Source: Chitinispirillales bacterium (GTDB lineage: Bacteria > Fibrobacterota > Chitinivibrionia > Chitinivibrionales > Chitinispirillaceae). From it: 64,000 nt of DNA. The position numbers were made by a program, and so were the translations under genes. Positions 27,595 to 37,831 of the stretch are shown piece after piece (position 1 is the first letter of the stretch; each line of letters opens with the position of its first letter). The notes under the pieces were generated by a model, which saw only the letters and a program-made list of their open reading frames with translations, searched no databases and was not told the origin of the DNA. The DNA lies in NCBI GenBank assembly GCA_031254105.1, contig JAIRVB010000039.1, positions 1-64,000 on the forward strand, in the 5' to 3' direction.

Positions 27595-28251
27595 TCACGG
27601 CAATTCTTTCAGTCCAAGTTCCTTAAGAAACTTATTGTGGGTTCTTTTCGCCTTTGTTATTGTATTCTCGATTTTTGCCAGGTCTTTGCTGACCTGGTTA
27701 ATATCAATTTTTTCTTCCGGCTTTGCCGTGCTCACATACCGCGATATGTTCAGATTGTATTCGTTCTTTGCGATTTCTTCCATTGAAACACAACGTGAAT
27801 ATCGCTCTTCATTTTTTCGGTATTGATAGGCGTCTATGATTTTATCAATATGTTTAGCTGAAAGGAAATTCTGCCGTTTACCCTTTTCAAAATATTCACT
27901 GCCGCTGGTATTGACAAATAAAACATCGTTGAATTTTTTACATCTTTTTAAAACCAAAATACATACCGGAATACCGGTAGAAAAGAACAGATTCGCTGGC
28001 AAGCCTATTACTGCATCAATATGTCCGTCTTTTAACAGTTTTGCCCGTATCCGCTCTTCTGCTCCGCCGCGGAAAAGAACCCCGTGCGGCAGAATAATCG
28101 CCATGGTTCCTTCATCGCTTAAAAAATGAAAACCATGCAGCAAAAAGGCAAAATCAGCCGCTGATTTTGGAGCGAGTCCATAGCTTTTAAACCGAAAATC
28201 TTCTCCCATTGCCTCGTTTGGTTCCCAACGCAAACTAAAAGGCAGATACAC
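27595..28251 (-). pseudogene. hsdM: Type I restriction-modification methyltransferase HsdM, 5'-truncated
   Basis: This frame encodes the C-terminal 216 or so residues of HsdM: PFSLRWEPNEAMGEDFRF, SYGLAPKSAADFAFLLHG, LPHGVLFRGGAEERIR and GLPANLFFSTGIPVCILVL are all diagnostic. It begins at the last part of the catalytic NPPF motif: PFSLRW is present while the preceding Asn-Pro and the whole SAM-binding motif I are missing. The apparent GTG start at 28251 is just the first codon available after the break. The break coincides with the left end of plus-strand cassette DNA. Without motif I and the NPPF asparagine this protein cannot methylate DNA, so the type I system here is probably not functional unless complemented from elsewhere. 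Confidence 0.9.
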
Positions 28252-28262
28252 GCGGACAGTCT

Positions 28263-28433
28263 ATGTCAATTGCTGTGGCAAAGTGGATAGGAACGTTAGC
28301 ACCAGCTATTCTGTTTGGCGTTGTTGAAATGTTTAATATCTATATCATTATCACTGGTATTGTGTGCAGTATTTTTGATATTTTGTATATTGTGTTACTG
28401 CATAACAAGAAAAAGGAGAACAGAAAAACATGA
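28263..28433 (+). CDS. Small membrane protein or fragment, cassette ORF
   Basis: A 56-residue frame with two hydrophobic stretches (GTLAPAILFGVVEMFNIYII and GIVCSIFDILYIVLL) and a basic tail (HNKKKENRKT). The frame is open upstream to 28239 without a clear ribosome binding site, so this may be the C-terminal part of a longer cassette gene cut at the junction with hsdM. Its stop lies 18 bases before the first attC core, the usual cassette arrangement. Function unknown; small membrane proteins are common in integron cassettes. Confidence 0.5.
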   Translation: MSIAVAKWIGTLAPAILFGVVEMFNIYIIITGIVCSIFDILYIVLLHNKKKENRKT

Positions 28434-28451: not shown

Positions 28452-28568
28452 GTGCAACGAGGCGGTTTGGCGCAATGGCGGGTGTAGCCCGCTCAAAGTG
28501 CGGTGCGATTTTAGAAGTTTGCCGCCTGCGTGAAGTTGCCACTACGCCAAGCCGCTTGGACGTTATAC
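28452..28568 (+). other. Integron attC recombination site 1
   Basis: A 117-bp imperfect palindrome. The outer core boxes are R'' GTGCAAC (28452-28458) and R' GTTATAC (28562-28568). Inner arms AGGCGGTTTGGCG and CGCCAAGCCGCT are complementary apart from one extra base and a mismatch, as in L''/L' boxes. The interior has a small hairpin, GCGGGTGTAGCCCGC. It shares about 60 nearly identical bases with the second site. Recombination would cut after the G of R'. Confidence 0.85.
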
Positions 28569-28617
28569 GCCAGCGGTGGACAGCGCAGTGAATAACAACA
28601 CTAAACAATAAGAAACA

Positions 28618-29829
28618 ATGAAACTGATAACGACATCAATAGACTTAGAAAAAGAATTTAGGCGATTGACTAATCAATATGACAATTTTTATTGGGCAAC
28701 CGCTTGGGCAAGTTCAGGCTCTAAACTCTTCAATGACCTTTTGAGCCATAAAGGGAAAATTCAAAAAATTGTTGTTGGCATTCATTTTTATCAGACACAC
28801 CCAGACTTTATTGAGGCGTTCTTAAACGATAAAAAAGTTCGCTTTATTCAACAACCAGAAGGAACTTTTCACCCAAAACTCTATCTTTTTACCAACAAGT
28901 CAAATGAATGGGAAATGATTATCGGCAGTGCAAATTTTACAACCCAAGCATTTACAAGAAATACAGAAGCCAGTTTATTGCTTTCTCATAGCGACAGCAA
29001 TTCCACTGATACATACAATCACGCATTAAAACTTGTTGAACAAACATTTTTAGACGGCAGGACATTTGATAAAACAGACCTTGATAAATATCGGATAACT
29101 TGGAGCAATCACAGACAAAAAATAAAAAGTCTTTCAGGGCAATACGGTAGTAAGAAAAGAAAACCAAAACCAATTTATGAAGTCCCAATGATAAACAGAA
29201 GTTGGGACGAGTTTATAAATGAAATAAGGAATGAAGCATTTCACGGACTTGTTAAAAGATTAAGAGTAATTGAAATTGCTAAAAATCTATTTTACAGAGT
29301 TGACCATTTCTATGAATTGACCGAAGACGAAAGAAAGTTTATAGCAGGAATACCTAACAAACTTGACATAGACGGTGCAGAAGATTGGGGTTATTTTGGC
29401 AGTATGAAAGGAGCGGGAATTTTTAAAAACAAAATAAAGGCAAATGACAAAAACATATCAAAAGCACTTGACCAAATTCCATTGACAGGTCAAATAACCA
29501 AGAAGCATTACGACAATTACATCAAATTTTTTATACAAGTATTTTCGGGCAATTATATAGCAACCGCAACAAGGCTTTTGTGTATGAAACGACCTGACAC
29601 TTTCGTGTGTTTTGACAGTAAAAATCGTTCGGCTCTTTGCAAAGATTTTGGTATTATTCAGTCAGAAATGGACTACGGAAGATATTGGGACGATATCGTG
29701 GAGAGAATTTATGACAGTGATTGGTGGTTAAACCCCAACCCTAAAAATAAGGAAGAAGAAAAAGTAAGTGAAGCAAGAGCCGCATTTTTGGATAGTTTAT
29801 ATTATGAAGAAAGACAACAAACAATATAA
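28618..29829 (+). CDS. PLD-like nuclease-domain protein in an integron cassette
   Basis: A 403-residue cytosolic protein. Residues 1-150 are a phospholipase D-like (HKD) domain: TAWASSGSKLFNDLL, VGIHFYQTHPDFIEAF, and the signature FHPKLYLF ... IIGSANFTTQAFTRNTEA (H-x-K plus GSANFT). Only one HKD motif is present, so activity would need a dimer, as in BfiI-type and Nuc nucleases. The C-terminal half (LTEDERKFIAGIP, FFIQVFSGNYIATATRLL, PDTFVCFDSKNRSALCKDFG) is a separate domain I cannot name; it resembles DNA-binding parts of restriction-like proteins. Single-HKD proteins with such tails occur in phage-defence islands. The gene is bracketed by two attC sites: its stop is 18 bases from attC2. 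No strong ribosome binding site is seen (AAGAAAC before ATG), which is common in cassettes. Confidence 0.8.
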   Translation: MKLITTSIDLEKEFRRLTNQYDNFYWATAWASSGSKLFNDLLSHKGKIQKIVVGIHFYQTHPDFIEAFLNDKKVRFIQQPEGTFHPKLYLFTNKSNEWEMIIGSANFTTQAFTRNTEASLLLSHSDSNSTDTYNHALKLVEQTFLDGRTFDKTDLDKYRITWSNHRQKIKSLSGQYGSKKRKPKPIYEVPMINRSWDEFINEIRNEAFHGLVKRLRVIEIAKNLFYRVDHFYELTEDERKFIAGIPNKLDIDGAEDWGYFGSMKGAGIFKNKIKANDKNISKALDQIPLTGQITKKHYDNYIKFFIQVFSGNYIATATRLLCMKRPDTFVCFDSKNRSALCKDFGIIQSEMDYGRYWDDIVERIYDSDWWLNPNPKNKEEEKVSEARAAFLDSLYYEERQQTI

Positions 29830-29847
29830 TAGAAAACAAATGCCGTC

Positions 29848-29975
29848 GCATAACGAGGCGGTTTGGCGCAATGGCGGGTGTAGCCCGCTCAAAGTGTGGT
29901 GCGATTTTAGAAGTTTCGTTCCCGCGCGAGCCTTTGTGAAACCGCCACCTGCGGCAAGCCGCCGGAACGTTGCAC
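29848..29975 (+). other. Integron attC recombination site 2
   Basis: A 128-bp imperfect palindrome with R'' GCATAAC (29848-29854) and R' GTTGCAC (29969-29975). Its left half (AACGAGGCGGTTTGGCGCAA onward) is almost identical to attC1 for about 60 bases, while the right halves differ more. The right inner arm is GGCAAGCCGCCGG. R' of this site is the exact complement of R'' of site 1, and R'' of this site nearly matches the complement of R' of site 1, which is the swap expected when cassettes are joined at the G/TT cut. Confidence 0.85.
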
Positions 29976-30048: not shown

Positions 30049-31827
30049 ATGGAAATAAACGAACTTATAACCGATGCAGAGTCTGGAAATCCTTTAGCGC
30101 AAACAGATTTAGGGATCTGTTATTTTCGTGGATATGGAGTAGAACCTGACCCGAAAAAAGCCTTATTTTGGTATCTAAAAGCAGCCAAACAAGATGAACC
30201 TGCGGCGATGACTAATGCTGGAAGATGTTACATGTTCGGGATTGGTACTGATAAAAATATAGAAAAGGCAATCCAGTTGTTATCAAAAGCCTGTGAGTTT
30301 GATATTGCAGAAGCTCAAAGCGGTTTGGGAATTATTTATATGTACGGCGATGGAATACCAGCCAACCCCCAAAAAGCGTTTGAGTTATTTACTCGTGCCG
30401 CCGAGAAAGAATCCTCTGAGGCATTCAATTGTTTGGGACGTTGCTATCTTGAAGGTATTGGAGTAGAAAAGGATTTATCGAAAGCGATAGATTATTTTCA
30501 TAAAGTACGTATGTGTGGCGCGATTGAACAAAACAACTATCGCTATATTTGTAGTAAAATAAATATTAACGAACTAACTTCGTTAGCTGATGGTGGGAAC
30601 GCAAAAGCACAATATTTTTTGGGGAATATGTACCGTGATGGGGCAAATGTAAAACAAGATATAAATTTGTCGTTTGATTTAATTTATAAAGCTTCTTGTC
30701 AAAACGACCCATTAGCATTGCTTATGATTGGTTGTTTTAAATATGAACAAGAAAAAGACTATATTTTTGCTGAGATGATACTAGAAAAAGCCGTTGAGGC
30801 GGGTTCAATAGAGGCACAACACTATCTCGAAATGGCAAGAGAAAAAATTGTAGAAAAGGGCACATTTTTTCTTGTCAAAATAACGAAGAAACAATACGCA
30901 GATAGTCTAAGAAATGGAACTCTATATATGCAATCCCTTGAGAAGTTTGCCGAAACAGAGGCAAATATGAGCAATTCACAGAAAGATACGCATGAGGGGA
31001 CAGTATCAAGAAAAACACCTGAATACCAAATCGGAGCAAAAGGCGGTGTCATGCAGGTCAGGAAAATATTTTGCTTATACTCTTTAGATTGCGATATTGA
31101 GCATGGCTATTTATCTCCGCCTAATCATAAACTGTTAGACAAGGAAAAAAGTTTTGGAGATACTGCTGTTATAATTTTGGATGTAAACGAATTTATCCGT
31201 AGAGTTAAAAGGGCTTTTTCTGAAAAATACGGCGATGCTTTTCGAGTTTCATATAAACGGGTAGTTTATGACGCAGATACGTTTTATGCAAACAATTCCA
31301 GTTACTGTGACGAGTTTCATAAAAAAAGCTCATACGGTTGGCAGAGAGAGTTTAGAATATCATTGGATTTGAGTAACGGGAAAGCTCCCCTAAAGGGTAA
31401 GACTGATTGGTTAGTGTCGCAAGGAGTTTCGTATGATAATGATCCGACTTCTGATTTCAATGCCGATAAAATATTTATAGATATAGGCAGTATTGAGAAA
31501 ATTTCCATAGAAATGCCAATAAATGATTTTGTTACAAAAATTGACGAACTTATTGATGATAAATACTTCCCGCCCGAAAAAGTTGAAACTTTTTTTGATA
31601 AGAAGAGATATACGGAAGTTCTTTACCCTGTTTTTTATGGAGAGCAGTCTGATACTACTTATTGGAACGAAAATCCTCTTGAAAATCCCCGCCCAAAAAA
31701 AGAAAGAAGCGAAAAGATAGAAAAGACAAACTTGACTTTTTCTAGTAGAAGTTTATCGGAGATTAAGGCAAACATTGCAAAAGGTATAGAAAAACTCCGC
31801 ACCCAAGTAGATGAAAGTCAGGAATGA
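30049..31827 (+). CDS. Sel1-repeat protein with uncharacterised C-terminal domain
   Basis: A 592-residue protein. Residues 1-270 are Sel1-like (TPR-related) repeats: AQTDLGICYFRGYGVEPDPK, AMTNAGRCYMFGIGTDKN, AQSGLGIIYMYGDGIPANP, AFNCLGRCYLEGIGVEKD, AQYFLGNMYRDGANVKQD. Residues 275-530 form a distinct domain beginning FFLVKITKKQYADSLRNGTL, with MQVRKIFCLYSL, DTAVIILDVNEFIRRV and WQREFRISLDL. I do not recognise it; similar ITKKQYADSLxNGxLYM starts appear in hypothetical proteins of accessory islands. The C-terminus (KIEKTNLTF onward) is polar. Start: AAAGGAA six bases before ATG. It follows attC2 by 73 bp, so it is the next cassette, but no attC follows: its 3' end meets the broken hsdS. A sensor-effector role is possible but unproven. 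Confidence 0.7.
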   Translation: MEINELITDAESGNPLAQTDLGICYFRGYGVEPDPKKALFWYLKAAKQDEPAAMTNAGRCYMFGIGTDKNIEKAIQLLSKACEFDIAEAQSGLGIIYMYGDGIPANPQKAFELFTRAAEKESSEAFNCLGRCYLEGIGVEKDLSKAIDYFHKVRMCGAIEQNNYRYICSKININELTSLADGGNAKAQYFLGNMYRDGANVKQDINLSFDLIYKASCQNDPLALLMIGCFKYEQEKDYIFAEMILEKAVEAGSIEAQHYLEMAREKIVEKGTFFLVKITKKQYADSLRNGTLYMQSLEKFAETEANMSNSQKDTHEGTVSRKTPEYQIGAKGGVMQVRKIFCLYSLDCDIEHGYLSPPNHKLLDKEKSFGDTAVIILDVNEFIRRVKRAFSEKYGDAFRVSYKRVVYDADTFYANNSSYCDEFHKKSSYGWQREFRISLDLSNGKAPLKGKTDWLVSQGVSYDNDPTSDFNADKIFIDIGSIEKISIEMPINDFVTKIDELIDDKYFPPEKVETFFDKKRYTEVLYPVFYGEQSDTTYWNENPLENPRPKKERSEKIEKTNLTFSSRSLSEIKANIAKGIEKLRTQVDESQE

Positions 31828-31971
31828 TAATAAACATTTTGTGGAATTTTTTATCAAAACATCTACTAAGCTGTATTCAGTCCACTCCCCCTCATTTTTA
31901 AACTCAGGAAACCTCAGCTCCGGCGCCAATTGCCTTCTGCTCTTATCTCTCATTTTTTTATCAACACGCAT
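31753..31971 (-). pseudogene. hsdS: Type I restriction specificity subunit HsdS, N-terminal stub
   Basis: The frame starts with MRDKSRRQLAPELRFPEFKN (after six extra codons), then EGEWTEYSLVDVL, the usual opening of HsdS just before its first target-recognition domain. Homology ends after about 40 codons, near 31850, and the frame runs on as NSTKCLLSFLTF into the antisense of the Sel1 gene's 3' end. Both target-recognition domains are missing, so it cannot function. It begins 3 bases after the rhuM stop, in an operon order hsdR, DUF1016, rhuM, hsdS on the minus strand. The missing 3' part matches the missing 5' part of hsdM, as if one event replaced the middle. Confidence 0.8.
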
Positions 31972-31974
31972 AAA

Positions 31975-33018
31975 TCACTTATTTCCAATTTGTTTGATTG
32001 CTTTATCGAAATCCGATTCAAAAAGGCGGTCTTGAATGGGGCGGAATTTTTCAAATTCGTTTTCTGCTTTTTGTTTTGCAATGTCGGCAGTTATCTTTCC
32101 TGCATTTTGCAGCAACTCTTTTCCGTTTGCTTGTAAAATCAAGTCTAAGTGTTTTGCCCAATCTTCCATTGTAAGAGGGGTTTGCCGTTTTGCGTATTCT
32201 TCGGCAAGGTCTAAATAACCAGAAACAATACGCCCAAGAGATTCTAATTCGCTTTCAGTCAAATAATTTTTTGCAATTGCCACATCGGTTTTTACGATTT
32301 TTCCGTTCGGCGATTTTTCCCACGAGATTAATCCCATGTTATCTTTTGTATGGTCGGCGCGTTTGTAAATTAATTCGGCGGCGGTGTTTTTATGAATAGC
32401 ATAGTGCATTTTGTTTTGAATTTTCGCAAAAAACTCTTTTGTAACCGGCGATTCTGAATTATAATCCATTGCGGTGGCGTAAATGTCTGTAATTTTCTGA
32501 TAAAACCGGCGTTCCGACAAGCGGATTTCGCGGATTTCCGCTAAAAGCCGTTCAAAATAATCTTCACCGAGAAAAACGCCGTTTTCCATTCGTTTTTTAT
32601 CTATCACATAGCCGCGCAAAGCAAAGTCTCTCAACACAGCCGTTGCCCATTGACGAAATGTTGTTGCGCGTTTTGAATTTACACGATAGCCAACGGCAAT
32701 AATTGCGTCAAGATTGTAGTGCTTTACTTTTCTGCAAACCTCACGTTTTCCTTCCTGGCGAACTACCGAGTAATCCTCGGTAGTTGATTTTTCGTGCAAT
32801 TCATTTTCGTCATAAATATTTTTCAAATGCAGTCCAATATTGTCTGAAGATGTATCAAATAATAGAGCCATAAGACGTTGCGATAACCATATCGTTCCAT
32901 TTTGAACACGCACTTCAATACTTTCAGCATTTGCCTGACTTGTAAATATCAAAAATTCAGCGGTACTGCTGCGAATTTGGACGTTGTTTTTTTGAACTTC
33001 TTTATTCTTCATTTTCAA
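31975..33018 (-). CDS. RhuM-family protein (virulence RhuM / DUF of type I RM loci)
   Basis: A 347-residue member of the RhuM family, intact in length. Typical pieces in order: EVRVQNGTIWLSQRLMALLF (winged-helix-like N-terminus, about 35-55), NIGLHLKNIYDENEL, KHYNLDAIIAVGYRVNSKRA (the family signature, about 118-137), FRQWATAVLRDFALRGYVID, and the C-terminal LFESDFDKAIKQIG. RhuM proteins are very frequently lodged inside type I restriction-modification operons, but their biochemical role is not established. The gene overlaps the DUF1016 gene by 17 bases and precedes the hsdS stub by 3 bases, so all are one transcript. A broken paralogue is at 1877-2168. Confidence 0.9.
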   Translation of the reverse strand: MKMKNKEVQKNNVQIRSSTAEFLIFTSQANAESIEVRVQNGTIWLSQRLMALLFDTSSDNIGLHLKNIYDENELHEKSTTEDYSVVRQEGKREVCRKVKHYNLDAIIAVGYRVNSKRATTFRQWATAVLRDFALRGYVIDKKRMENGVFLGEDYFERLLAEIREIRLSERRFYQKITDIYATAMDYNSESPVTKEFFAKIQNKMHYAIHKNTAAELIYKRADHTKDNMGLISWEKSPNGKIVKTDVAIAKNYLTESELESLGRIVSGYLDLAEEYAKRQTPLTMEDWAKHLDLILQANGKELLQNAGKITADIAKQKAENEFEKFRPIQDRLFESDFDKAIKQIGNK

Positions 33019-33445
33019 TCACCATTTTCAGTTCTTTTTTCAGTTCTTCTTCGGTTGGCAGGTAAAGCAAGTATTTTGAGGCGAATTCTACCCTCATTAT
33101 CAATCTGTAATGTGTCCAACTCAATTCGGGACGCACTGCGCCCCGAATTGGAAAAGCCAAATAAAACTGTCTGATCTTTCGCAGCTCTCTTTCCTCAAAT
33201 CCTTTTCCAAAATCCTGCGTCAGCCGTTCGGAAAGGTATTTCAGCAACGAAGACCCGTATTCAGCGCGTTCGTTATTGCCTTGCGTTTCCACTATTTGTT
33301 TGCCGATCGTCCAGTAGGCTTCTACCATCGCAAAATTTACCGCCGAATAGGCTTTTGTTCGCGTCGCTGTTAATATTTCTTTTATCTGATTGTAAATCAA
33401 ATTCCCGGACATATCTAATGCGGTTATTTTCTTCTTCTTACTCAT
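33002..33445 (-). CDS. DUF1016 (YhcG-type) protein with nuclease domain deleted
   Basis: A 147-residue protein that keeps the DUF1016 N-terminal domain (YNQIKEILTATRTKAYSAVN, VEAYWTIGKQIVE, YGSSLLKYLSERLTQDFGKG, LRKIRQFYLAFP, SWTHYRLIMRVE) and then jumps directly to FASKYLLYLPTEEELKKELK, which is the usual extreme C-terminus of the family. Full-length members are about 350 residues, with a PD-(D/E)XK nuclease between these parts. That middle is absent without loss of frame. The ATG overlaps the hsdR 3' end by 8 bases, and the stop overlaps rhuM, so translation is coupled. Either it is an in-frame deletion remnant or a short form retained as a DNA-binding or regulatory protein. Confidence 0.8.
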   Translation of the reverse strand: MSKKKKITALDMSGNLIYNQIKEILTATRTKAYSAVNFAMVEAYWTIGKQIVETQGNNERAEYGSSLLKYLSERLTQDFGKGFEERELRKIRQFYLAFPIRGAVRPELSWTHYRLIMRVEFASKYLLYLPTEEELKKELKMVIENEE

Positions 33446-36434
33446 ACGCGCTTAATCCTGTAATCTCACGTCCGCCGGCAAGTTTTTTCAGGAGCGGAAT
33501 CAAATCTTCCATTAATTTCAGTTCCTTTTTTGTTCTGTCTTTCCAGCCCAATTCAAGCGGCTCCATCAAACCGCTGAGTTTCTCGCCGTCAAATATCATG
33601 CGGTCAATAATTTCATCTGCAAAAGCCTGCAGCGCTTGCGGCTCCAGTCCGTGCTTAAGCGCCGCCGCCGCCATCTCGTCAGCGTTTTTTTCAGACTTGA
33701 ATTTTTGGTAACCCTCTTTTATTTCAGTTTCATTTAACGGCACACCGGCTTTAAGTGTTTTTATATAGGCGACAAGGTCTTCATGGTCTTCCATCAAATT
33801 AGAACTGGAGCGAATTATGTTGATTATATCTTCGCGGCTCACAGTCTGTTTTTTGGGGTTTTCCTGAGTGCTTTTTGCTATCAGCGACATGATGTAATCA
33901 TAATCAATAGTTACGGAGGAAAACAGGATAAACTCAAAATCAAGCTGCTCAACATCTGGAGGCGTGTCGGCGTTATCCGTACCTTGCTGAGATTTCAGGC
34001 GCTGCGCTGTTTCGATGTATGCGCCGCGAAAAGCCCGCATTGTATCTTCGGGCAGAAGCTCTTCAATTTTGGCTTTTTCCTCTTCACCCAGGTCGGTGTA
34101 CTGGTCAAGCTGGGTTTTGAGCCGCTGTATTTCCTTAAATTTATTGATAAATGCGGCCCGCGCCAGATCGCCTTTAAGATTATATACTTCTTCCGGCTTG
34201 CAGGGCAGCCCCTGGGATTCCATAAATTGTTCCAGTTCCCTGATTGCAGCATCAAATTTTTTGACAACATCGGGAGCAGGATCAACCAGCCATATCTCTT
34301 TTTCCCTTTTGTTATTCTGCCCGGAAAAAAGCTTAATGGCTTCGTCAACCTCTCCTTTTTGCTCTCTGAAGTCAAGAATATTTCCAAAAGGTTTTGTGTC
34401 ATTCAATACGCGGTTTGTTCTGGAGAAGGCCTGTATCAATCCATGATGCTTTAAGTTTTTATCAACATACAGGGTATTCAGATATTTTGAATCAAATCCG
34501 GTTAACAGCATATCTACAACAATAACTATATCAATTTTATTTTTATGCGGATAATCGGCATTTGAATATTTATGATCTTTAATTCTTTTTTGTACATCCT
34601 GATAGTATAAATCAAACTCATTTATACTGTGATTTGTGCCGTACTGCATGTTATAATCGGCAATAATCGCTTTCAGGGCTTTTTTCTTTTTATCGGGTTC
34701 CTGTTTGTTATCATATTTTTCCTGAAGTAAATCTTCCTGAATTTGCTGAACGTCTTTATCTCCTTCGGCAGGGGGCGAAAAGACACACGCAACATTTAAC
34801 TGAGTAAAGCTTTCATCTTTTTGTCTGCGCTCTTCCCGCATTTTTTTGAAAAGATCATAGTACTCAATAGCGTCATTTATGGATGCTGTCGCTAAAATTG
34901 CGTTGAAGCGTCTTGCGTCAGTAACGGCGTTGTGTTTATCAAGAATCGAATTTACAACGGCTTTTTTTCTGACGGCGCCTCCTGTTTTATCCTGTTTCTT
35001 ACTATCCGGTTTAAAATAATCAACATGAAATCGCAGGACGTTTTTATCCTCAATCGCATGAGTTATTGTATAGGCGTGCAGTTCTTTTTCGAAAATATCT
35101 ATTGTTGTCTTATAAGAGCTTTCTGTACCATCAATTTTTGTGTAAATTGCGTTGCTGTCAAAAATAGGCGTTCCCGTAAAACCGAATAGCTGCGCCTTGG
35201 GGAAAAACTCTTTTATCAATTTATGATTATCGCCGAATTGTGAACGGTGACATTCATCAAAAATAATGACAACTCTTTTATCACGAAGCGGCATTAGTTT
35301 TTCTTTAAAGGTTAGTTTGCCTTTTGCTTTACGTTTTTGATTTTTTTTACTGTTTTCGTCAAGAGCGAGACTAAGTTTCTGAATGGTAGTTACTATCACC
35401 TTGTTCGCGTTGAGTTCTGATTCTAACTTTTGTACCAGCGCTTCCGTATTGGTATTTTCTTCAACGCAGCCTTTCTGAAACTTGTTGAATTCATCACGGG
35501 TCTGCCTGTCAAGATCTTTGCGGTCAACAACAAACAGGCATTTTTCGATATTTGGATTGTCTTTCAGGAGTGTTGAAGCCTTAAAAGACGTAAGAGTTTT
35601 TCCGCTGCCTGTAGTATGCCAGATGTAGCCGTTTCCCCTGTTTTGATGAATACAGTTTACAATAGCCTCGACCGCGCAGATTTGATAGGGACGCATGATC
35701 ATTAATTTCTGTTCGCTGACCACAAGCACCATATACCGGCTGATCAATTGTCCCAGAGTGCATTTTGCGAGAAAATGTTCGGCGAAGTCGTGTAAATGAG
35801 TGATTTTTTTGTTTTCTTTATCCGCGAACTGATATATGGGTAAAAATCTTTCATCTGCGTTAAAAGCGAAATGGTCTTTATGATTATTTGCGAAATAATA
35901 TGTATTGTTTGCGTTGCTGACAATAAAAAGCTGTATGAAACAAAGAAGTGAATTGGTAAAACCATTACCAGGATCGTTTTTGTATTCAACGATCTGCTCC
36001 ATTGCTCTTTTGGGCGTTATCTGAAGAGTTTTAAGTTCAATTTGAACGACCGGCACGCCGTTAATCAATATGATGACGTCATAACGGCGGTGACTGTTTT
36101 CAGTATTAATTCGCAGTTGATTGATGACCTCAAACTCGTTTTTACACCAGTCTTTTATATTAACCAGAGTATAATAAAGGGGAGTGTCGTCATCTCTGCG
36201 AAATTCATTTTTTTCCCGCAGTCTTTTTGCGGCAGAAAATACATCGGCACTAATAATTTCATCTCTGAGACGCGCAAATTCAGAAGAACTCAAATTTACT
36301 TTATTGAGTTCTTCAAAGTGTTTTTTAAAATTCGCCTCAAGCGAATCCTTATCCCGGATATCATCGCGGTATGTATATTTAAGGTCTTTGAGTTTATTGA
36401 GTAAAGACTCTTCTATTTTCTTTTCAGATGTCAT
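33438..36434 (-). CDS. hsdR: Type I restriction enzyme R subunit
   Basis: A 998-residue motor-nuclease subunit of a type I restriction system. The N-terminal nuclease has NSHRRYDVIILINGVPVVQI followed by ELKTLQ (D...E-L-K, near residue 130). The SF2 translocase shows HTTGSGKTLTSF (Walker A, about 272-283), VIIFDECHRSQFG (DEAD box, near 398), FGFTGTPIF (motif III), and VDMLLTGFDSKYLN and LIQAFSRTNRV (motifs V and VI). The helical C-terminus (EELLPEDTMRAFRGAYIETA) binds the methyltransferase complex. Length and motifs are complete. It is first in the minus-strand operon. Since hsdS and hsdM are broken here, HsdR could be silent, or could pair with M/S subunits encoded elsewhere. Confidence 0.95.
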   Translation of the reverse strand: MTSEKKIEESLLNKLKDLKYTYRDDIRDKDSLEANFKKHFEELNKVNLSSSEFARLRDEIISADVFSAAKRLREKNEFRRDDDTPLYYTLVNIKDWCKNEFEVINQLRINTENSHRRYDVIILINGVPVVQIELKTLQITPKRAMEQIVEYKNDPGNGFTNSLLCFIQLFIVSNANNTYYFANNHKDHFAFNADERFLPIYQFADKENKKITHLHDFAEHFLAKCTLGQLISRYMVLVVSEQKLMIMRPYQICAVEAIVNCIHQNRGNGYIWHTTGSGKTLTSFKASTLLKDNPNIEKCLFVVDRKDLDRQTRDEFNKFQKGCVEENTNTEALVQKLESELNANKVIVTTIQKLSLALDENSKKNQKRKAKGKLTFKEKLMPLRDKRVVIIFDECHRSQFGDNHKLIKEFFPKAQLFGFTGTPIFDSNAIYTKIDGTESSYKTTIDIFEKELHAYTITHAIEDKNVLRFHVDYFKPDSKKQDKTGGAVRKKAVVNSILDKHNAVTDARRFNAILATASINDAIEYYDLFKKMREERRQKDESFTQLNVACVFSPPAEGDKDVQQIQEDLLQEKYDNKQEPDKKKKALKAIIADYNMQYGTNHSINEFDLYYQDVQKRIKDHKYSNADYPHKNKIDIVIVVDMLLTGFDSKYLNTLYVDKNLKHHGLIQAFSRTNRVLNDTKPFGNILDFREQKGEVDEAIKLFSGQNNKREKEIWLVDPAPDVVKKFDAAIRELEQFMESQGLPCKPEEVYNLKGDLARAAFINKFKEIQRLKTQLDQYTDLGEEEKAKIEELLPEDTMRAFRGAYIETAQRLKSQQGTDNADTPPDVEQLDFEFILFSSVTIDYDYIMSLIAKSTQENPKKQTVSREDIINIIRSSSNLMEDHEDLVAYIKTLKAGVPLNETEIKEGYQKFKSEKNADEMAAAALKHGLEPQALQAFADEIIDRMIFDGEKLSGLMEPLELGWKDRTKKELKLMEDLIPLLKKLAGGREITGLSAYE

Positions 36435-36780
36435 TTATATCTACCTTTCAATCCTCCTGTTTAAAGCTGGTATTTCACATAACTTTAAACATATACGGTA
36501 TATCGGTTCATCCGCTTATTTCTGAAATAAGATAAAAAATCTTTCGTAAACCTCATATTTCTGTAAGAGGTATAATATTTTTTATGCTCAGAGTTTTGAC
36601 TCAAATTTAAATGCGGCGCAGATTTACGGTGGGGACTGTTATAACAGGCATTCAAACTGAACGGCGCGGAACAATTAACGTAAACGCAAAGATAAATGTC
36701 CAAATTGATACGCCCGGGCAGAAAGGTTAAATTGAAAGTACTCTCAGCGGCAGTTGAAATCTTTTAGTTTTTTTAAAAAT
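36435..36780. other. Intergenic region between hsdR and tRNA-Leu, no gene seen
   Basis: The 346-bp gap must contain the hsdR promoter (minus strand). No clear promoter pair stands out. GGTAGATATAA (complement of 36439-36449) precedes the hsdR start, giving a modest ribosome binding site (AGGTAG). No attachment-site duplication of the tRNA 3' end was found by eye at the other side of the island. Confidence 0.4.
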
Positions 36781-36863
36781 GCCGAAGCCCGGGGTCGAAC
36801 CGGGATGATGTTGCCATCGCTGGATTTTGAGTCCAGTGCGTCTACCAACTCCGCCACTTCGGC
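36781..36863 (-). tRNA. tRNA-Leu (anticodon CAA)
   Basis: On the minus strand the acceptor arms are GCCGAAG and CTTCGGC (7 bp, perfect). The D-arm region is TGGCGGAGTTGGTAGACGCA, the anticodon stem-loop is CTGGA-CTCAAAA-TCCAG with anticodon CAA, then a long variable arm (CGATGGCAACATCAT) as in class II tRNAs, and a T-arm CCGGTTCGACCCCGG. CCA is not encoded. The 83-nt length fits tRNA-Leu. It lies at the edge of the type I restriction island, and tRNA genes are frequent integration points. Confidence 0.95.

Positions 36864-37443: not shown

Positions 37444-37831
<388 letters not shown>

Follow-up and report, generated by a model that had tools for sequence, protein, structure and literature searches.

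Integrons have been defined by an integrase with an additional domain (PMC9668308, PMC7790495). The I2 insertion of this integrase is described as a helix that docks extrahelical bases, conferring the use of a single strand and preventing second-strand exchange; cassette capture is said to require it, and its gain to have given rise to integrons by steps for which intermediates are lacking (PMC7790495). In Bacteroidetes, Salinibacter is the only complete integron given (PMC9024848).

We analyzed a stretch of 64,000 nucleotides (the window) from contig C15 of a genome of 3.68 Mb in 56 contigs. It encodes two Fib_succ_major proteins, and these fit the "Fibrobacterota-like" host of an initial annotation, which had reported an integron attC pair within a type I restriction island. 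The features of the locus are:

27595..28251, minus strand: hsdM remnant, C-terminal part only (N6_Mtase profile positions 134-310 only; Pfam)
28252..28433, plus strand: 3′ end of a truncated gene before attC1, an open frame ending ...NKKKENRKT stop, with a membrane-protein-like C-terminus by eye
28452..28568, plus strand: putative attC1, R'' GTGCAAC at 28452-28458, R' GTTATAC at 28562-28568, predicted cut 28562/28563
28563..29969, plus strand: putative inserted cassette, from TTATAC through the PLD gene and attC2 to the G of GTT, delimited by box matches
28618..29829, plus strand: cassette gene for a 403-aa PLD/NgoFVII-type nuclease (Pfam PF09565, E = 4e-8; PF13091, E = 1.7e-7)
29848..29975, plus strand: putative attC2, R'' GCATAAC at 29848-29854, R' GTTGCAC at 29969-29975, predicted cut 29969/29970
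30049..31827, plus strand: gene after attC2, for a 592-aa Sel1-repeat protein (Pfam Sel1, 5 repeats)
31753..31971, minus strand: hsdS remnant, N-terminal start only, a 72-aa frame resembling an HsdS N-terminus by eye, directly after rhuM
31975..36434, minus strand: remaining genes of the type I R-M operon (Pfam and PADLOC)
31975-33018, minus strand: rhuM (Pfam/PADLOC)
33002-33445, minus strand: DUF1016_N gene (Pfam/PADLOC)
33438-36434, minus strand: hsdR (Pfam/PADLOC)

The positions and R''/R' boxes of the two palindromes are as first annotated, and so is their distance from the preceding stop codon, which is exactly 18 nt for both (TGA 28431-28433; TAA ending 29829). The two sites lie 1.4 kb apart and are 98% identical over 65 nt and 82% identical over 110 nt. 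R'' of attC1 is exactly complementary to R' of attC2 (7/7), the two outer boxes together making one perfect attC, and R'' of attC2 agrees with the complement of R' of attC1 at 6/7 positions. The swapped cores had been explained by recombination at the G^TT cut, and the box comparison bears this out: attC1 and attC2 are cassette recombination sites, the boxes being swapped because the cassette (TTATAC, PLD gene, and GCATAAC through to G; 28563-29969) entered a pre-existing attC and divided it in two.

In a palindrome scan of the whole 64-kb window, attC1 and attC2 were the sole AAC...GTT sites scoring ≥15, and none of 200 dinucleotide shuffles of the region contained two sites with such a score. 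Folding free energies of the isolated strands gave weak z-scores for both sites (-0.1 to -1.2), the sites doing no better than the majority of shuffled sequences, so the evidence for the sites is their pairing and arrangement, not their stability. An attC covariance model had been proposed as a check; our own Bacteroidota-built model (R1, with no site of this genome in it) recovered attC2 at exactly 29848-29975, with a modest score of 26.5 bits (E = 0.0011 in 257 kb), but missed attC1, which had no match at E ≤ 1.

No recombinase gene is present from 20 to 40 kb in the window, in line with the earlier claim that no functional integrase lies nearby, and a search for the attI motif in the window returned nothing convincing. 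In arrangement, though not by an attC model, the pair resembles a CALIN, a group of two or more neighboring attC sites with no integrase. The palindrome scan found no site 3′ of the Sel1-repeat gene, which is likely a second cassette without an attC of its own. The PLD gene has a weak PADLOC match to ZacB; the idea that its cassette is common to Bacteroidota was discarded, its only relative there being a distant, C-terminal one in a single termite-gut genome with no site beside it.

The restriction-island setting was correctly recognized, though the type I R-M operon is interrupted there: the cassettes lie between the hsdM and hsdS remnants, where the N-terminal half of hsdM and all of hsdS beyond its start have been replaced. 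On the hsdR side of the island, a tRNA gene (minus strand, 36780-36863) is a possible older integration point; a run of CT dinucleotides at about 37560-37610 is possibly a phase-variable repeat.

In this genome as a whole we found single or paired site relics at four loci and two integrase pseudogenes, both cut before the I2 region, and no full-length IntI. On contig C23 a recombinase pseudogene is followed by the box GTTGCAGGCA, preceded by TTATTGCGTATATTAGGGA, then by a frameshifted cassette and an attC with an R'' (TGCCTGCAAC) exactly complementary to GTTGCAGGCA. The order integrase-attI-cassette-attC is thus preserved as a relic. The suggestion that an integron platform may exist in the lineage therefore holds for a decayed platform, but only relics are present and no active array. 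The second recombinase pseudogene, on C22, has its upstream region in common with C23, and a fragment with 81% identity is present in a Lentimicrobiaceae genome. A search for the attI motif on C22 returned nothing convincing. We dropped the C23 gene as a candidate classical intI; its intact relatives are without the insertion. The intI that was to be sought in the full genome did not materialize: nothing matched TIGR02249 over the cut-off, and the two decayed relatives of an XerA-like recombinase were found instead. Other cassettes of this genome also look defence-related; a type IIG R-M gene precedes the site on C54, C23 has a PDC-S26 candidate (PADLOC), and on C29 a DUF1016-type gene is followed by one site, and the gene after that by a broken one (gene names by eye).

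Several MAGs, of Bacteroidales and other groups, carry sites closely resembling those of the window; going by their isolate names, several presumably come from termite guts. Two recombinase pseudogenes from different phyla (C22, L071 1742-3221; Lentimicrobiaceae, end of L075) abut a purine nucleoside phosphorylase gene, the orientation of which differs between the two loci. A gene resembling AlbA_2/Schlafen-type ATP-binding regulators recurs near recombinases or sites (L071 1-1032, L028 10050-10190, L030 873-1679, L046 262-1665), and contigs C22 and C23 terminate within one such copy, in an identical piece of it.

In Bacteroidota relatives the recombinase is intact and stands beside arrays of up to about a dozen sites. 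Recombinase-flanked arrays were found in genomes G405 and G589, and in G623, G837, G752, and G572, which were reached from attC matches alone. Among arrays chosen by their sites alone, the recombinase was seen in only some, being at the upstream end in four cases (e.g., with 12 sites in G623); three loci (L084, L093, and L094) have no site near the enzyme. A site lies within 5 kb of 8 of 11 recombinases (0.6 expected, P about 4e-9), a test in which the recombinases were found before the sites but the genomes had been chosen for the recombinase. Arrays point away from the recombinase whether the two are divergent or co-oriented; one palindrome of L095 in the opposite sense was left out of the statistics. 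The Persicobacter plasmid pPP2 (L116) carries a long array of at least 14 such attC sites within 12 kb, almost all of them pointing the same way.

Neighboring sites in the arrays follow the rule seen in the window. R'' of a site matched the complement of R' of the preceding site at 6.08 of 7 positions on average (13 pairs; 2.63 by chance). At other loci, 20 of 22 neighbor pairs were perfect in the four outer bases (2% by chance), and one of the two mismatched pairs spans an insertion; one L097 pair is common to both sets, and 16 of 50 listed sites were left out of the pair statistics with AAC/GTT off the expected place, mostly at long or ragged ends of covariance-model matches. The attI predicted from the first cassette, and located by complementarity to it, was present in all 11 platforms, C23 included, at 6 or 7 of 7 positions (swapped-box control: 3.6%), and in three of four further platforms, L133 being a failed search. 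At several attI, including those of C23 and three Bacteroidales, TTGCRTATAT lies 9-11 nt before GTT. The attI is not palindromic and does not resemble attC.

The recombinase differs from IntI in a defining part. The I2 insertion, roughly 40 residues, is absent from 13/13 aligned family members, and the distance from GxR to HxxRH is 91-94 residues, as in Xer, against 133-134 in IntI; the C-terminus has an SPLD-like motif, as in IntI. An AF2 model (mean pLDDT 81; pTM 0.50, so that the domain arrangement is uncertain) has no extra helix at the place of I2 and an additional N-terminal bba-bba domain; its best fold match is XerA, with VchIntIA also among the best. The N-terminal domain (L091 residues 1-60) is weakly DUF5710-like and present in most members; a 272-aa Flagellimonas recombinase is without it. 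This domain might partly stand in for I2. In a small tree, a branch (100/99) separates the recombinase and IntI from three Xer-type sequences, but branches are long, the I2-less sequences do not form one clade against IntI, and the branching order is unresolved.

The sites differ correspondingly. The longer spacer is on the right in 31/31 attC sites scanned (2/6 nt), with about 0.1 bulged bases per site; seven canonical control sites (VCR, class 1, and class 2) scanned identically have 3/3 spacers and 2-3 extrahelical bases. The extrahelical bases expected of the folded sites in the initial annotation are thus nearly absent, with an asymmetric spacer in their place. Since I2 docks extrahelical bases, the lack of I2 and the lack of such bases fit each other. 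The sites have recurrent A/G and T/C mismatches, and their arms covary (13 of 15 pairs with changes on both sides).

These data bear on whether the same cassettes could move by a double-stranded, Xer-like reaction in which the palindrome merely places two recombinase monomers. The enzyme is without the insertion to which single-strand use and the block on second-strand exchange are ascribed (PMC7790495), its motif spacing is that of Xer, and XerA is its best fold match. However, the arms vary between sites yet stay paired, which suggests selection for a folded strand, the pairing extends over about 15 bp, and attI is non-palindromic where attC is palindromic. We regard a double-stranded reaction as rather unlikely, and the covarying arms as arguing for a folded strand as the substrate.

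A conventional CALIN, i.e., cassettes of an ordinary IntI integron whose classical IntI has been lost or acts from elsewhere, would share the R''/R' boxes, the G^TT cut, the hairpin arms, and the cassette order with what we observe. It is nevertheless very improbable, as none of nine genomes has a TIGR02249 match over the cut-off (eight of them carry sites by the covariance model at E ≤ 0.01), the sites have no extrahelical bases and an asymmetric spacer, and the recombinase adjoining the arrays is without I2. The annotated pair consequently stands as cassette recombination sites, but not as attC of known IntI integrons. That the palindromes are not attC at all, and are MITE, REP-type, or transcription-terminator repeats after genes, is barely credible: they do follow stop codons, and single copies are scattered over the genome, but matched boundary boxes and breakpoints at one fixed position are unexpected of such repeats, and an Rfam search matched only a tRNA, with no family for the palindromes.

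The system is common in Bacteroidota and sporadic in the phylum of the window. With a covariance model built from 18 Bacteroidota sites, at least one site was found in 141 of 296 sampled Bacteroidota genomes (about 48%; E ≤ 1e-8) and in 7 of 168 genomes from the latter phylum (E ≤ 1e-5). A BLAST search of attC2 against the same 168 genomes had returned this genome only, the covariance model later adding six. Most relatives are in Bacteroidota, termite-gut genomes included.

Sites of this kind also adjoin resistance genes on plasmids and in Acinetobacter (L117 1170-2630, L112 2497-4978, L110 1005-2631, L098 5904-6745, L115 2498-2632). Eight plasmids have in common a site beside erm(F) or estT but differ in the DNA that adjoins it, the change falling exactly at the predicted cut, AA^C. 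tet(X2) (L117) and OXA-347 (L112) each lie between two sites with matching boxes, and erm(F) lies reversed between two sites on Bacteroidota plasmids. Such sites likewise bound, or form a junction with, a DHFR-family gene on Bacteroidota plasmids and, in Acinetobacter, the estT gene that neighbors tet(X5). Directly upstream of tet(X3) in Acinetobacter is an N-truncated member of the recombinase family.

Our preferred reading, to which we assign a probability of about 85%, is that the window holds a short, integrase-less cassette remnant of an integron-like system whose recombinase is without I2. The integrase would be a tyrosine recombinase related to XerA and IntI that joins palindromic attC of about 130 nt, cut at G^TT, to each other and to an attI beside its own gene. 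Circular cassettes, each a gene and an attC with matching R''/R' boxes, would thereby be inserted and excised. The PLD-nuclease cassette would have entered an attC beside the type I R-M operon, the halves of which are now presumably the outer halves of attC1 and attC2. The substrate would be a folded single strand, with the asymmetric 2/6 spacer and the fixed mismatches, in place of extrahelical bases, indicating its polarity. At the level of sequence, the comparisons establish the site anatomy, the cassette rule, attI, the linkage to the recombinase, and the breakpoints at the cut; from them we infer catalysis by this recombinase, the use of a folded strand, and the polarity cue. Counting against this reading are the presence of only decayed integrases in this genome, the missed attC1 and modest attC2 score in the covariance model, the small, long-branched tree, the presence of a recombinase at only some of the arrays, the three loci with the enzyme but no site near it, and the choice of genomes by recombinase in the 5-kb linkage test.

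More broadly, we lean slightly toward regarding these arrays as a widespread, undescribed class of I2-less integrons in Bacteroidota and neighboring phyla, with attC lacking extrahelical bases. Such a class may represent the missing step from Xer recombinases to IntI, or else cassette shuffling reached independently, and the tet(X), erm(F), and OXA-347 resistance cassettes of Bacteroidota may have been put together by it. A literature search for attC with Bacteroidota recombinases, tetX, or ermF, with preprints and most subscription papers outside its scope, found no description, and the novelty of these arrays is provisional. If they are indeed natural arrays served by an enzyme without I2, the role of I2 becomes directly testable, the near absence of complete integrons in Bacteroidetes despite sites in about half of the genomes is explained, and tet(X) and erm(F) gain a site-specific mechanism of spread.

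Compared with IntI-type integrons (SCI and CALIN; TIGR02249, Vibrio VCR), the arrays are alike in R''/R' attC cut at G^TT, in co-oriented cassettes with matching ends, and in an attI beside the integrase. They differ in that IntI integrons have I2, 3/3 spacers, and 2-3 extrahelical bases, whereas here the spacers are 2/6 and I2 and extrahelical bases are lacking. The chromosomal integron of Treponema, another example outside Proteobacteria, resembles some of the present platforms in having its integrase co-oriented with the cassettes; its integrase is a classical IntI. XerA-like recombinases (NF040815, named by NCBI "site-specific tyrosine recombinase/integron integrase"; 5hxy, 4a8e) are the best sequence and fold matches and have equal motif spacing, but the recombinases described here have an SPLD-like C-terminal motif, often an extra N-terminal domain, and a position at the head of arrays. 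The cassette pair in the window is real and integron-like in its working, and by the definition tested it is outside the IntI class; such arrays are best filed as integron-like, with an I2-less recombinase, and distinct from that class.
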